Assembly (NCBI GenBank): GCA_033064195.1 | Contig: JARBJD010000098.1 | Location: 168,843 to 232,842 of the forward strand | Direction of reading: 5' to 3' | From: Blattamonas nauphoetae | Taxonomy: Eukaryota > Preaxostyla > Oxymonadida | Length of the DNA stretch: 64,000 bases | Part shown: positions 1-23,340 of the stretch, in pieces | Position numbering within the stretch: position 1 is the stretch's first letter | How the letters are laid out: each line of letters starts with the position of its first letter | Notes under the pieces: model-generated | Seen by the model: only the letters and a program-made list of their open reading frames with translations | Told to the model about the DNA's origin: nothing | Databases searched by the model: none | Position numbers and translations under genes: made by a program

Positions 1-1557
1 GGTAAAGTTTCAACTGAATCAAAACCAAAAAATCGTTTGACTCCGAACGTTGAAGAAGAAGCCGCTCGCCTTTTTGAAATTGGAGTTCCTTCTAGTGATG
101 TTCTCCAGTCTTTAAAAACTAATCATGGGTCGGAAGCTCAAATTTCTGATATATACTACCTGAGATCAGCGTATCGCCAAGCTAAAGACGGAAACGATTC
201 ATTCGAAAATATCATTGCAATGATTGACAAAAAACAATATAGTGTGGATTGGCGTCTGGACGAAAAAGAAGTGGTTTCCTCTTTTATGGTGTATTCAGCT
301 GTGTCTCTCCAACTCTTTTCTCAATTTCCAACCGTTGTGCTATTGGATGCAACGTATTCAACAAATCGACTGGGCTATCATCTTGTGCAGGTTCTTGGGA
401 GACACGCTATCGGCAATTTTTTCACAATATGTTATGTGTTTACTCTACGAGAAAGGAAGGAGGACTATGACTGGATCTTCCACCAACTTCTATCTCACAC
501 AAACGGGTTGTCCAAAACTAAAGTTATTATTACGGATTCTGCCCAAGCCGAAATTCAATCGATCAAGTCTGTCCTTCCAAATGTCAAACACATGTTGTGC
601 ATATGGCACATTCTCCGAAACATCGAGGCTCGAATTCGAACTCAATATGAGGAAATTGAACAAGCAGACGAAGCTATGAATTTCTTCAGAAAACAGTGGA
701 ACGTTCTGAATGGTCCCATGGATATCTCAGCCTTTGACGATGCCAAAAATCATTTTATTCAGACTTTTGTCGAGGATGACAGGAATTGGGATGATTTTCT
801 TCAATATATGGAGAAACAGTGGTTTCCATTGTCTCCATATTTCATTCATTGTTTTACAGATCGCTATCCCCATCTTGGGATACGTACAACGTCTCCAGTC
901 GAGGGGATGCATGCTGCTTTAAAAAACCATCTCCCATCTCGAAATGTCCGGTTGGTGGAAACTGTCAAGCGAATATTGGATTTCGATGCCAATCAAAAAG
1001 ATGAAATTCGGCGCATTGTGCAGTTTCAGCGAACCAACAGACTCAATCGACTGAAATTCAATCCTACGCTAACACATCTCTGGGGCAAAATATCATTTCT
1101 CGGTATCAAAACACTTCTTGATTTTATGTCCCCTTCTAATGCTGCAAGACCGTGTACCACCACCACGACGACAACTCTTCTTTTACCCTGCGTCCATATC
1201 CTGAACAGGTATCAAGCAGATCAAACACCTTTTCCGCTAAGGACTATCCCAGGAGTGTGGCGACTTTATGGCGACGAAGAGCCATCTGACCCCTTTTCTG
1301 AGGATAGTTGGGTGCGTACCTATCACGTCGGTGATCGCTTTCAACTGCTCAGGACAGCCAAACTTCCACCTATTCAACGCTCTCCTTCATCCCACCTTGG
1401 AGCCTCGGAGTCTCTCCGCTGCTCAGAACCTCTGGCGGAACGAACAATCAAAGCAACGAAAAGGAAGAAGCCATCAGGTTCCAAACAACAAGATAAGAAA
1501 ACTATGAAAAGGGCAGACACGAAATCATTAACGCTTATGGATCTAAGTCATGACTGA
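1..1557 (+). CDS. MULE-family transposase, 5' partial
   Basis: The frame is open from base 1 and the first in-frame Met is internal, so the N-terminus lies outside the window. It looks like a Mutator-like (FAR1/FHY3-type) DDE transposase. A first catalytic Asp sits in LLDATYSTN (near base 346) and a second in VIITDSAQAE (near 535). The MULE signature CIWHILRN follows, and a candidate Glu sits in TSPVEGMHAALK (near 901). The Lys-rich tail contains LAERTIKATKRKK. A very similar block, AAAERTIKVVKRH, stands in front of the OTU domain in the hAT element at 53.75-58.93 kb. Here the frame stops at 1555-1557 with no OTU domain. No terminal inverted repeats of this element were found. Function (element transposition) is inferred from the family; activity is unknown. 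Confidence 0.85.
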   Translation, partial: GKVSTESKPKNRLTPNVEEEAARLFEIGVPSSDVLQSLKTNHGSEAQISDIYYLRSAYRQAKDGNDSFENIIAMIDKKQYSVDWRLDEKEVVSSFMVYSAVSLQLFSQFPTVVLLDATYSTNRLGYHLVQVLGRHAIGNFFTICYVFTLRERKEDYDWIFHQLLSHTNGLSKTKVIITDSAQAEIQSIKSVLPNVKHMLCIWHILRNIEARIRTQYEEIEQADEAMNFFRKQWNVLNGPMDISAFDDAKNHFIQTFVEDDRNWDDFLQYMEKQWFPLSPYFIHCFTDRYPHLGIRTTSPVEGMHAALKNHLPSRNVRLVETVKRILDFDANQKDEIRRIVQFQRTNRLNRLKFNPTLTHLWGKISFLGIKTLLDFMSPSNAARPCTTTTTTTLLLPCVHILNRYQADQTPFPLRTIPGVWRLYGDEEPSDPFSEDSWVRTYHVGDRFQLLRTAKLPPIQRSPSSHLGASESLRCSEPLAERTIKATKRKKPSGSKQQDKKTMKRADTKSLTLMDLSHD

Positions 1558-18654: not shown

Positions 18655-20085
18655 ATGTCCTCCGTTGAAAAACAGACTCTGTTCAAGGTGCCAATTCAAT
18701 CACCATTTTCAAACACAGATGGTACTGTTTATACCGGTGAAAGATTGGTTTGGATTTTCATTCTGTATTTCAATCGTCGAACTGGACTTTTGTCACTGAT
18801 TCATTTCTCGTTCTTTGTATCATTTATCACTCCTTTGTTCTCTCTCTTCGAAATCGTATTCATTCATCTTCTGATGACCATGCTTCAGATGAAGGAATTC
18901 CGAAGATGTGAAAGCGAGTTCAAGAATGGCGATGAAACGACCCAATTTACTATCGCTCATTCTGTCCTCAACATGCTTCTATCAGGCTTGCTTGTGGAGA
19001 TATTCACGATTGTTGCATTCTTTGCGAACATATTCCTCTGATTTTGATTGTTCATTCTTCATTCTTTTTATATCTCAGAACCAACAAAAATGAAGGAACG
19101 AAGTGAAATTGGGATTCGGAGTGGATTGTTGGAAAGATTTTCGGAACGGCTTTCCTCAGACTGTTCATCCACCCTTTCTGTCTGTCTCCCTTATTCTCTC
19201 GATATCATCGTATTTCTCAATCGTGTTATTTTCATGATTTTCAGGCAGTTCTGTCAAGTGTGATTGGGGTGATGGTGATATCAGTGTCGGAAGGACGACA
19301 GAAACTTCGGAGCGACTTGATTCCTTCTCTTCTTGTCCTCTCCTCAGTTTGTTCCTCTCTTTCTTCATTCCTTCTCTTCCTCCATCTTAATCCTCTTCTC
19401 GTTGCTTTATGATCGATCAGCATGCAGACAGTTCGTTGTCGACACCAGCCACACACTCGATTGGGTATCCTCCTTTCTCTTTCTTCATCGTACTCTTGTC
19501 CATCTTGATGTCTCGATTTCTTTATGGTCTGGAGTCTTCTGTGTGGAGGAAGTCTTTCGTGTCAGGAAGTGGAGGGAGTGTTGAGTTCAGGAATTGTTGA
19601 GCGACTTTGCACACAAATTGAAGCCGAATCAAGCGATGTGGATGTTCTGACAACACTTCTTGTTCTGGACCGATTGTGTCGTGGCCTTCGATCTCACATT
19701 GACAACGAACAGCATTCGAAATCAACTAGCCAGAAGAATGAAGAACAGGAAGATGACAAGCTCTCGTTGACTCGTCGCTGCGGATTCGCACTTGCTCGAA
19801 TTGAGAAGGCAGTTCTGATGCTGGAGAAGCGAGTTGGAGGAAAGATGGATGGCGACGAGACAACACAAAACATCCTAAAAGAAGTTGGAGGAATAATGGT
19901 TCGTCATTTCCGATCGTCGATCCACTCGTCGAAGAAACAGATTGGAGCGATTGAGATTGACTTGGCCGCAGAACGAAGAGACATGGAAGCTGAACGAGAA
20001 ACAGCGAAGAAAGCAGAAGAGGAGAGACAGAAAGAGTATGTGAGGAAGACGAGAGCGATGGAAGAGTCTGTATCTCTTTTTCAAC
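18655..20085 (+). CDS. Spliced alpha-solenoid/coiled-coil protein, model incomplete
   Basis: An apparent start at 18655 reads MSSVEKQTLFKVPIQSPF. Later exon-like blocks follow: 18893-18990 (ETTQFTIAHSVLNMLLSGLL), 19085-19165 (KMKERSEIGIRSGLLERF), 19256-19330 (SVIGVMVISVSEGRQKLRSD), and 19577-20070 (VLSSGIVERLCTQIEAESSD, then a helical segment and a Glu/Lys-rich coiled coil). T-rich, GT...AG-bounded gaps separate them. The style resembles ARM-like solenoid proteins of oxymonads, but no named family is asserted. The last exon runs without a stop into the start of ATG3, so where this gene ends, and whether it is intact, is unclear. Confidence 0.4.
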
Positions 20086-21207
20086 ATGGATGTTGCACAA
20101 TTCTTTCCGTTCATCGTTATTTTCTCACCCGTCTCCTTTTCCTGCAACTCAGAAAGATATCAGGTAGAACACAGGAAGCCCTGCAGAACGAAGGCAAAGA
20201 AATCGCGCTAACTGTGAAGGAAGTTCCCACCAAATCAACTTTCGTTAAAGACGGCAAAATCACCCCCGATGAATTTATCGCAGCTGGTCTGTTCTTCCTT
20301 TTGTTTCCACCTTCACAAATATTCTCAAATGTCATCTAGGTGATCGTCTCGTGATGAAAAACCCAGTTTGGGCATGGTATGAATCACTCCCTCTTGTTCC
20401 ATCGACCGTCGTCTCATAGGCAAGGTGGTGACGCAGACAAGAAGCTGTGGTATCTCCCGGATAATAAGCAGTTCCTCAAGCTCAAGTCCATTCCATGCCG
20501 AGTACGTGCCAGTGCTCTTGCTGTCGAGGCCAAGGAAGAGACAAGTCTTCATCTTCTCCTAAGCTCATTTTCATCTCTTCTCTCTCATCTGCATCAACTA
20601 ATATTTCCACACTCAGATAATCTCTCCTCTGAGCCAGCCAAAGAACCCAACCCTTCTGACGACGAAGAAGAAGAAGAGGAGGATGTCATCTTCGACCCTC
20701 CTTCAGAAGATGATTGTGTTTGACCCACTGAATTTCACATCTACCCTTTTTAGGTTTTTTCCATTGGAAACCCATACCGTCGATTCGATGCAACGATCTG
20801 TTATGATCTGTCCTCTCTCTCTCCTCGTCTCTTCTTGTACGGTTATGACGAAGTGTGTTTTCATCAACAATTTTTGATGCTCTTATTTAGGATGAGACGA
20901 CTCCGTTGACAATCGAACAAATCCTCGAGGATCTCAGCGAAGTTTGACAATTTCACTTTTGTGATTCTTCTGTCCCAAATAGGAATATCCCGCTACAGCA
21001 GCTACTACACTTCCCCATCCTCATCTTGGCATTCCCTGGACCGCTATTGACACTTCCAATCACTCAATCATCATGAAGAGCATGATCGATCGCGAAGCTG
21101 AAGCGGGACGGACATTGAAGGTCGAACAGTACATGTTCTTTTTCCTCAAGTTTGTCCAAACAATCTGCCCCACTCTTGAGATTGAAAAGACAATTATGTC
21201 GGAATAG
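20086..21207 (+). CDS. ATG3: ATG3-like E2 enzyme lacking the catalytic cysteine
   Basis: ATG3 is the E2 that transfers ATG8 to phosphatidylethanolamine in autophagy. Eight exons are read. Introns are 20109-20152, 20287-20339, 20377-20419, 20545-20616, 20718-20753, 20853-20890 and 20942-20982 (36-72 nt). Exons sum to 795 nt, i.e. 264 residues plus TAG. Landmarks are GKITPDEFIAAGDRLV (residues 42-57), NPVWAW (60-65), LPDNKQFLKLKSIPC (77-91), an acidic flexible region (about 112-139), RRFDATICYDLSSLSPRLFLYGYDE (149-173), HPHLGIPW (202-209) and FFFLKFVQTICPTLE (242-256). At the active site, where ATG3 has HPCxH, this protein reads DTSNH (213-217), so the catalytic Cys is Ser215 (TCC). It is shorter than the usual ~310 residues. 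The structure is otherwise intact, so it may be a non-catalytic ATG8-system protein or a fresh pseudogene. Confidence 0.9.
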
Positions 21208-21511
21208 GCCTTCGTGTTCCTCCCCATTTTTCGAAGCAATTTATCATTGATCTCGCGTTGTTTGTTTTTATCTCTCACTTTCACATTATCGTTCTGAAGA
21301 CGATTGAGTTGATAAAGTGAGAGACTACGTCAAATGAGCAGGAATGGTTTTCACAAGGAGTTGAAATGAAATAATGGTCAAGATCGTGAAGGTTCATTCC
21401 TTTTTTCACTGGATGGATTTTCTCGTCATACACCATGTTTGTAACAGTCTCAACTTCTCTGATGTGTGTTCTCTCAGCATCCTTCAGCACACCCATTATT
21501 TCAAAATACAG
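21208..21511. other. ATG3-protease intergenic region
   Basis: About 300 bp without a supported gene. The candidate signal peptide and start of the protease gene lie just downstream. Confidence 0.4.
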
Positions 21512-23340
21512 ATGTTGTCTCATCTCATTCTGGTTCTTATCGAAGCATCCTCCATTGTGGACATTGTCAACAACGATCCTACGTCCACGTGGGTTGCTGT
21601 TGATTACCATCCAAGCATCATGTCGCTCGAAAAATTGAAGCGCCGGGTTAATCCTCACGTCACCTTCCCTCGCGGCCAACGCTTCACTGTGCCTGACGAA
21701 GATATCAAGAATGCTCTTCCGGAAGAATTTGATTCTCGCCAGCGTTGGCCTGTCGAATTCGCTGGAATCAGAGATCAAGGAGACTGCGGCTCCTGCTGGG
21801 CGTTTGCCATCACCACCGTTGTTGCCGACCGCGATGCCATCAAGGGATCCCCTCGTGGGCATTTGTCTGCTCAGGATCTTGTCTCCTGCGACACAAATGA
21901 TTATGGCTGTGGCGGATCCGAAATGTATAGGGGGTGCATTAATTACGTCCCCTCAGGTTTTCTCGATATATGATGAATGAAGACAATGACCAATACCGAT
22001 ATGAGTCATAAACATCTGTGATGCTCAGATTAGTGAACACATTTCACAATGATACTTCTTAATTTACGATTTTCAGCAGAGTTCCTGTTTCAGACACACG
22101 AATCCCAATCAACTATCACATTATTTTAAGAGGATGTCCATTCTACGGATTCAAATACATGAAAAAGACACAAATTGTTGAAGAATAAACAAATATCTTC
22201 CCATTGGAAGGTAAGTGGAGGATCCACACCACCGTCAACAACACAGATTCCCATATGTCTATCCACATCTCCATTCCGAAAGACACTCTCAAAACATGCT
22301 TCAAAGATGATTAAAGTCAATGACAGTCGATTTCAACGAAACCATGCATCTTTTCGTTCGCTTCATCAATCGATCCTCTCGAAAGAGGTATTGCGATTTT
22401 CATTTCTCAAAATCAGTTTTCGTTTCTGGAAATAGGGGAAGAAATACACGTTTCCTCAACATATGGAATTTTCAACCATGGTTCGAGTTTTCACTGACTT
22501 CTTCGTGGATCATGAAAGTGATTCGATTCAAGTCTCATTTTGAACATTTTTACGTCTTTCTAAGATTATAAGAAGATGACATAAGTGATATCGGTGATAA
22601 AACTCAACTTTCATACCTTCCAATGAAAAACGAATGACTTTTCATTTTTCCACCACACATGTGAATGAGGCTCTTATTTTACATTTTTAGAACACTGCAC
22701 GATAAAAGAGTTGAAAAGAACTCTGAAAATGAAATGATTTCTGGAAGTGTTTCTCATAGCTGAAAATATTCGTCAATCACCATCAGAAATGAGTGAATTG
22801 AGAGATCTATCACACAAAATATCGAAAATTTGAACAGAAACATGACTTACCAATGTTTAAGACATTCACGAAAAATCCAGTAATGTTAACTTAACAGATA
22901 TTGAAAAAACCTGAGGGGACGTAATTAATGCACCCCCTATACCCTGCTTGGGACTGGATGGTCTCCGACGGAGCAGCGACGGAAGAATGCATTCCTTATG
23001 TGTCTGGCGGAGGGTGAATCCCATTGTGGCCCTCAAAATGCAATAACGGATCGGACATCGTTCGCCATCGTGCAAGATCGATCTATTTTCCCGACACCGA
23101 ACTGAAGATTATGCAGGAAATATACGAATTTGGGCCTGTCCAAGCCAATATGTACACATTCCAAGACTTCTCGACGTACAAATCGGGAAATTATGAACAC
23201 AAGACGGGCAAGTGGCTGGCCGGCCATGCCGTCGTTAATCTTGGATGGGGGGTCGAAAAAAATGTTCAATTTAGGCGGTGCCAGAACATCTGAGGGGAGG
23301 TGGAGGGCATGTGGTGCATTCAGATTCTGGAATCCCGTCT
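21512..23340 (+). pseudogene. Cathepsin B-like cysteine protease, interrupted and decayed
   Basis: A start at 21512 gives a short hydrophobic signal (MLSHLILVLIEASS). A cathepsin B-type propeptide follows, then the mature start LPEEFDSRQRW, the active-site segment IRDQGDCGSCWAF (catalytic Cys) and CGGSEMY. The frame is then cut by the TIR element at 21928-22939. After it, PAWDWMVSDGAATEECIPY continues in register, then CNNGSD, FGPVQANMYTFQDF and the His motif GHAVVNLGWG. Further damage is an in-frame TGA after YVSGGG (about 23017), and a frame change after GWGVEK with the NSWG segment badly degraded (GRWRACGAFRFW). Family role is lysosomal/phagosomal proteolysis. This copy is not expected to make an enzyme. 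Confidence 0.85.
21928..22939. mobile_element. TIR element inserted in the cathepsin gene (1,012 bp)
   Basis: Ends TAGGGGGTGCATTAATTACG and the exact inverse, with inverted identity continuing through CCCCTCAGGTTTT (about 35 bp). TA flanks both sides (21926-21927, 22940-22941). Removing the element and one TA restores the codons for Met-Tyr-Pro and the protease frame. The interior is AT-rich with no transposase. A non-autonomous Tc1/mariner-like or related TA-targeting element is inferred. Confidence 0.85.

Follow-up and report, generated by a model that had tools for sequence, protein, structure and literature searches.

An ATG3 copy of Blattamonas nauphoetae with a dismantled catalytic centre and a replaced first exon: a candidate pseudo-E2

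In a 64,000-nucleotide stretch of Blattamonas nauphoetae DNA (the window; contig C836, 168843-232842, of the 88.3-Mb, 837-contig assembly that served as the searched genome) we found an ATG3 copy whose catalytic centre has been dismantled and whose exons 2-8 still give an open, spliceable reading. We favour the interpretation that this copy is a non-catalytic ATG3 paralogue retained under selection, a pseudo-E2, over that of a recent pseudogene, and give it a probability of about one half. The features on which the argument rests are collected in Table 1.

Table 1. Features of the window ATG3 copy, its surroundings and the related loci of the genome
Feature	Position	Strand	Evidence or remark
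5' half of coiled-coil multigene-family gene	18838-20065	+	collinear with C102:46927-48168
Candidate in-frame first coding exon of fused gene	19983-20035	+	Met at 19983, or further upstream; GT-donor frame check
Overlap of two collinear blocks, 59 bp, deletion junction	20007-20065	+	repeat shared by coiled-coil gene and ATG3 intron 1 fragment
ATG3-side collinear block	20007-21927	+	matches C102:51895-53860
Candidate intron 1	20036-20152	+	donor GTATGT, acceptor CAG; mostly former ATG3 intron 1; includes 20086-20108
ATG3 exon 2	20153-20286	+	spliced reading against paralogues
ATG3 exon 3	20340-20376	+	spliced reading against paralogues
ATG3 exon 4	20420-20544	+	42-bp in-frame deletion near 20540; DNA and codon alignments
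ATG3 exon 5	20617-20717	+	acidic flexible region, strongly diverged
ATG3 exon 6	20754-20852	+	Y169S/Y170S at 20811-20816; the second is the yeast Tyr179 equivalent
ATG3 exon 7	20891-20941	+	spliced reading against paralogues
ATG3 exon 8	20983-21207	+	stop TAG at 21205-21207
K204T/T205A, exon 8	20995-21000	+	yeast Lys212/Thr213; alignment
H222D/P223T/C224S/K225N, exon 8	21049-21060	+	alignment
110-bp run identical to C102 copy, probable gene-conversion tract	21082-21191	+	permutation P=0.0002
PF03987 locus in window			DTSNH
ATG3 locus on C223			HPCKH
ATG3 locus on C102			HPCKH
ATG3 locus on C235			divergent, HPCKH
ATG10-like gene on C223	L012 6780-7500		HPCGT

Splicing of exons 2-8 (plus strand, 20153-21207) gives an open ATG3 reading of 256 residues. 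It matches the PF03987 (Autophagy_act_C) profile with 121.5 bits (E 5.6e-35; cut-off 24.4), compared with 160.2 bits for the ATG3 of contig C223; this is its only Pfam match at E≤0.05, and the solved chains that it matches at E≤0.001 are all ATG3 (6/6). The exon layout is common to the window copy and its close paralogues on C223 and C102, the C-terminal FLKF segment is present, all 13 splice dinucleotides of exons 2-8 are GT or AG, and these exons contain neither stops nor frameshifts, with none of their splice sites lost. The GC content of the window (41-57% in 2-kb bins) is similar to that of the B. nauphoetae genome, for which the accessible part of PMC10703272 gives 44.96%. A DNA search of the genome with the window ATG3 returned four matches: itself, the copies on C102 (85%) and C223 (77%), and a short second match on C102. 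Judged by sequence, these results show the window copy to be a relative of catalytically intact ATG3s, with its nearest relative on C102.

The active site reads DTSNH (Ser codon at 21055-21057) at the place of the HPC[KR]H of the close paralogues and of human, Arabidopsis and yeast ATG3, as the first-pass annotation of this DNA had seen. Four adjacent codons (222 to 225; residue numbering follows the C223 copy) have changed relative to both close paralogues, which is more than one sequencing error would produce and bears out the annotation on this point too. The window copy was aligned with six other ATG3s (C223, C102, C235, human, Arabidopsis and yeast), and no other Cys of its reading fell on the active site; the annotation had named such a Cys among the findings that would speak against the loss. 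Forty positions are identical in all six, and the window copy differs at seven of them (Y160F, Y170S, K204T, T205A, H222D, P223T and C224S); when invariance is relaxed to five of the six ATG3s, it differs at 11 of 70.

In the accessible text of PMC6689050 on yeast Atg3, Cys234 is the catalytic residue, Thr213 is essential, and Tyr179 and His232 are described as important. With yeast residues counted by hand from C234, the alignment places these at C224, T205, Y170 and H222, and all four catalytic residues named in that text are replaced in the window copy (Cys to Ser, Thr to Ala, Tyr to Ser and His to Asp). The presence of all four among the seven of 40 changed positions has a hypergeometric P of 0.0004, in a test devised after the changes were seen. 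Many further substitutions lie in exons 5-7 and at the start of exon 8. The annotation had described the loss as local, with an intact neighbouring core. This did not hold, and loss of the Cys alone was rejected as an account of the copy, since the equivalents of Tyr179, Lys212 and Thr213 and a 14-residue segment with an LIR-like motif have been lost as well. That ordinary E2 chemistry has been lost is nearly certain given these replacements: without the Cys no ATG8 thioester should be possible, and therefore no ATG8 lipidation by this protein would be expected.

The 42-bp deletion in exon 4 took a 14-residue segment containing DDDWVAPE, which resembles an LIR. The W motif is kept at the other three ATG3 loci (C223, C102 and C235). 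According to the available portion of PMC10214526, the LIR of human ATG3 is W107-VDT (W107-T110) and is conserved across species and kingdoms, its Trp strictly so; S. cerevisiae, which has no such motif, is an exception. Because yeast also lacks it, a human-type LIR is common in ATG3 and not strictly defining. From that source and from DGWLAT at the same place in Arabidopsis, we infer that WVAP is the equivalent of the human WVDT (the human row of our alignment lacks the LIR stretch). The same portion reports that LC3 lipidation failed in human cells with either ATG3 C264A or ATG3 without the LIR, both of which still bound ATG5-ATG12 and ATG16L1. As the putative LIR segment is deleted, binding of ATG8 by the window protein is unlikely, and transfer of ATG8 from ATG7 should be poor. 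The first-pass suggestion of a non-catalytic ATG8-binding protein is thus sustained in its first half and undermined in its second.

The window copy also lacks the first exon of ATG3. In the C223 and C102 genes this exon is ATGGCAGACAA or ATGAGCAA, followed by GTATGTG, and it encodes only MAD(K) or MS(K). The annotation had described a complete eight-exon gene of 264 codons plus a stop. Its arithmetic is reproduced if 20086-20108 was taken as exon 1, as we suppose; this stretch aligns to ATG3 intron 1 of both C223 and C102, and seven ATG3 exons are left. The window and C102 are collinear in two blocks, one covering the 5' half of a coiled-coil gene, where 1268 aligned positions are 82.6% identical, and one on the ATG3 side. 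C102 has the stretch matching the overlap of the two blocks in two places, the coiled-coil gene and, as a fragment, intron 1 of ATG3, and relative to C102 the blocks leave ~3.8 kb missing in the window. The simplest history that we infer is loss of exon 1 by recombination between these repeats, with ~3.8 kb deleted. Sequence upstream of the native ATG3 start exon was removed by the same deletion.

The coiled-coil open reading frame carrying the candidate first coding exon opens at 19524 and is in frame with ATG3 exon 2, either through the GTATGT donor at 20036 or with the intron kept. Translation as a coiled-coil/ATG3 fusion is a candidate outcome, in which the N-terminal region that forms the site of the amphipathic membrane helix in ATG3 would keep its exon 2 part and have its exon 1 part replaced. 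The coiled-coil family has at least 157 matches in the genome, and no Pfam family scored above cut-off in the two members tried, one of which (19524-20085) had none at E≤0.001. Intron 1 of the C102 ATG3 (HPCKH) is itself partly duplicated and holds ~60 bp of coiled-coil-gene DNA (L011 1499-1743), which by hand count could be interpreted as an additional in-frame exon of 30 nt.

Selection was assessed by fitting codon models by maximum likelihood to the three close copies (window, C102 and C223; 255 codons). The window branch had an ω of 0.43, compared with 0.10 for C102 and 0.18 for C223; this value was below 1 (p=0.013) and above that of the other branches (p=0.008), and omitting exon 5, the end of exon 8 or the two together still left it below 1 (p 0.006-0.02). 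For exons 2-4 (99 codons) the window ω was 0.17 (p 0.002-0.003 against 1). From exon 5 to the exon 8 site (114 codons) it was 0.56-0.61, not distinct from 1 and higher than on the other branches (p 0.004-0.005). The two parts differ only weakly (p 0.075; 0.042 when the end of exon 8 is joined to exons 2-4). Selection on the window ATG3 is relaxed, not absent, and the constraint could predate the catalytic loss. The 110-bp identity with C102 looks like the product of gene conversion; we therefore rejected the lack of change at the end of exon 8 as proof of constraint. Descent of exons 5-8 from an unsampled, diverged donor was considered as well. The introns between these exons have diverged less than the coding parts, so simple conversion from such a donor would not account for the pattern. 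In the coiled-coil part, the window branch is very short and gave ω point estimates of 9-20, not distinct from 1 (p 0.09-0.15; three trios of 159-161 codons each); no constraint is seen there on this branch.

With 13 ambiguous codons omitted, the window branch carries 38 nonsynonymous changes at 568 sites, 23 synonymous changes at 158 and 13 intron changes at 380. Nonsynonymous change exceeded intron change on this branch (p=0.04, or 0.004 if the 13 ambiguous nucleotides are all assigned to it) and was lower than that of introns in C102 and C223; the comparison of exons 6 to the exon 8 site with introns 4-7 gave p=0.052. Because synonymous change also outpaces the introns, on the window branch most of all and on the C102 branch, the introns serve badly as a neutral reference, and we make no claim of positive selection on the window ATG3. 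About 60 neutral substitutions would be expected to cause 42 residue changes, the number counted. Neutral evolution was simulated from an inferred ancestor with chosen substitution numbers, indel rates of 0.04 and 0.08 per substitution and a frameshift share of 0.8, the indel rates being a rough reading from alignment gaps. The probability of escaping any stop, splice hit and frameshift was 0.02-0.045 at 30 substitutions and 0.0007-0.0023 at 58. For the 87 changes of the window branch, ambiguous sites included, the probability of no stop alone was 0.05.

Downstream, an element of ~1.01 kb (21928-22939), bounded by terminal inverted repeats (TAGGGGGTGCATTAATTACG...) and flanked by TA on both sides, interrupts a gene copy that we take to be cathepsin-like; the C102 copy is uninterrupted there. 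Among the 40 of 99 candidates that were scored, at least 22 copies of the element, the window one included, reach 976 bp or more with 98-100% identity, and these sequences point to a recent spread. At the start of the window, a long open reading (1-1554) presumably resembles a MULE/FAR1-type transposase.

Across the genome, the profile search for PF03987 gave eight matches, which represent five loci (Table 1). The ATG3s on C223, C102 and C235 each have HPCKH and an LIR-like W motif, in agreement with the annotation's proposal that this ATG3 is an additional one alongside a normal gene, and the search that it had recommended for another ATG3 with HPC and for ATG8, ATG7 and ATG5 found them all. 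On C223, the HPCKH ATG3 is followed ~5 kb downstream by the ATG10-like gene. ATG7 and ATG5 have one match each, and ATG4 (Peptidase_C54) has 12 on eight contigs (C7, C157, C163, C334, C423, C778, C84 and C123). There are two ATG8 loci; the one on C235, where the protein ends in GENTFG plus two residues, is ~14 kb from the divergent ATG3. ATG12 (PF04110) was detected neither in this genome nor in 14 control genomes, so that this search had no positive control.

Against this inventory, the annotation's further idea that ATG8 lipidation has been lost in the lineage has practically no standing. The dead window copy and the undetected ATG12 (given a search without a positive control) would agree with it, but the three HPCKH loci, the ATG10-like gene, ATG7, ATG5, ATG4 and both ATG8 loci tell against it. 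Conjugation of ATG8 through an oxyester, with Ser as the nucleophile, would suit the Cys to Ser substitution, and Ser oxyesters are known for E2s. We nevertheless consider it most improbable, as the equivalents of His, Pro, Thr213, Tyr179 and Lys212 and the LIR segment are also gone. An artefact of assembly or polishing, such as a collapsed mix of paralogues, comes to mind because paralogues of high identity exist (85% and 77% at the DNA level). The published B. nauphoetae assembly was, however, built with Nanopore and Illumina data according to the accessible part of PMC10703272, the active-site changes are seen in neither of the close paralogues and preserve frame and splice sites, and outside 18838-23296 the window and C102:41000-70999 are not collinear and share scattered repeats only. 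We judge an artefact very unlikely.

The serious competitor is a recent pseudogene, to which we give somewhat less than an even chance. An ATG3 duplicate, once enzymatic, would have lost exon 1 and its catalytic residues and would now be drifting, its frame not yet broken. The same observations speak for this history and against retention as a pseudo-E2: the native start exon is gone, the coiled-coil part is unconstrained, the adjacent cathepsin-like copy (as we name it) is interrupted by an element, and an ω of 0.43 also fits a constrained phase followed by neutral drift. If the copy is such a relic, it would clearly illustrate how a repeat-mediated deletion can create a fused reading frame. 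Yet a neutral phase long enough to yield the excess of nonsynonymous change should have broken the frame or the splicing (P intact 0.0007-0.045 between 58 and 30 substitutions), and frame and splice sites are intact. The changes at invariant sites are concentrated on catalytic residues, and the ω of exons 2-4 is well below 1. These three observations favour a retained pseudo-E2.

On the pseudo-E2 reading, the constrained exons 2-4 and the unbroken frame would suggest that the protein has been kept for its E2-like fold. Its most likely role would be that of an uncharged scaffold or competitor in contact with ATG7, ATG12-ATG5 or the phagophore membrane, and the intact ATG3s would carry out the conjugation chemistry beside it. 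We put forward only tentatively, and as rather unlikely, that the copy represents an oxymonad branch of pseudo-E2 ATG3s, fused to a coiled coil and without catalytic centre or LIR, which has kept the fold and tunes ATG8 lipidation by competing or partnering. A full-text search of open papers, outside which most subscription papers lie, found no report of a pseudoenzyme ATG3, and the accessible parts of a ciliate ATG paper (PMC5244887) and of PMC10942982 describe no Cys-less ATG3. If expressed, the window copy would extend to an autophagy E2 the idea, familiar from UEVs, of E2 folds kept without catalysis, and would be a natural separation of ATG3 scaffold from chemistry in a cell reportedly without mitochondria.

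Compared with active ATG3, the E2-like enzyme of ATG8 lipidation, the window copy shares the family match, the layout of exons 2-8 and the FLKF segment, but it differs in having no equivalents of the catalytic Cys, His, Thr213 and Tyr179, no LIR segment and no exon 1 of its own. The C102 ATG3 is like it in DNA (85% identity), in its flanks and in the coiled-coil fragment in intron 1, whereas it keeps exon 1, WVAPE, the Tyr, the Thr and HPCKH, and has an ω of 0.10. Among known pseudo-E2s, the UEVs (Mms2, TSG101, the UEVL domain of VPS37A and BRCC45), as described in the available parts of the literature, likewise have an E2-like domain without a catalytic Cys. In the accessible text of PMC10211241, Mms2 is an allosteric partner and BRCC45 a scaffold, and in that of PMC10942982 the VPS37A UEVL acts in autophagosome closure. 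UEVs are likened to ubiquitin E2s, whereas the window copy is closest to ATG3 itself. By analogy, our preferred reading is that it would be an ATG3-derived pseudoenzyme, UEV-like in its working and not a UEV.
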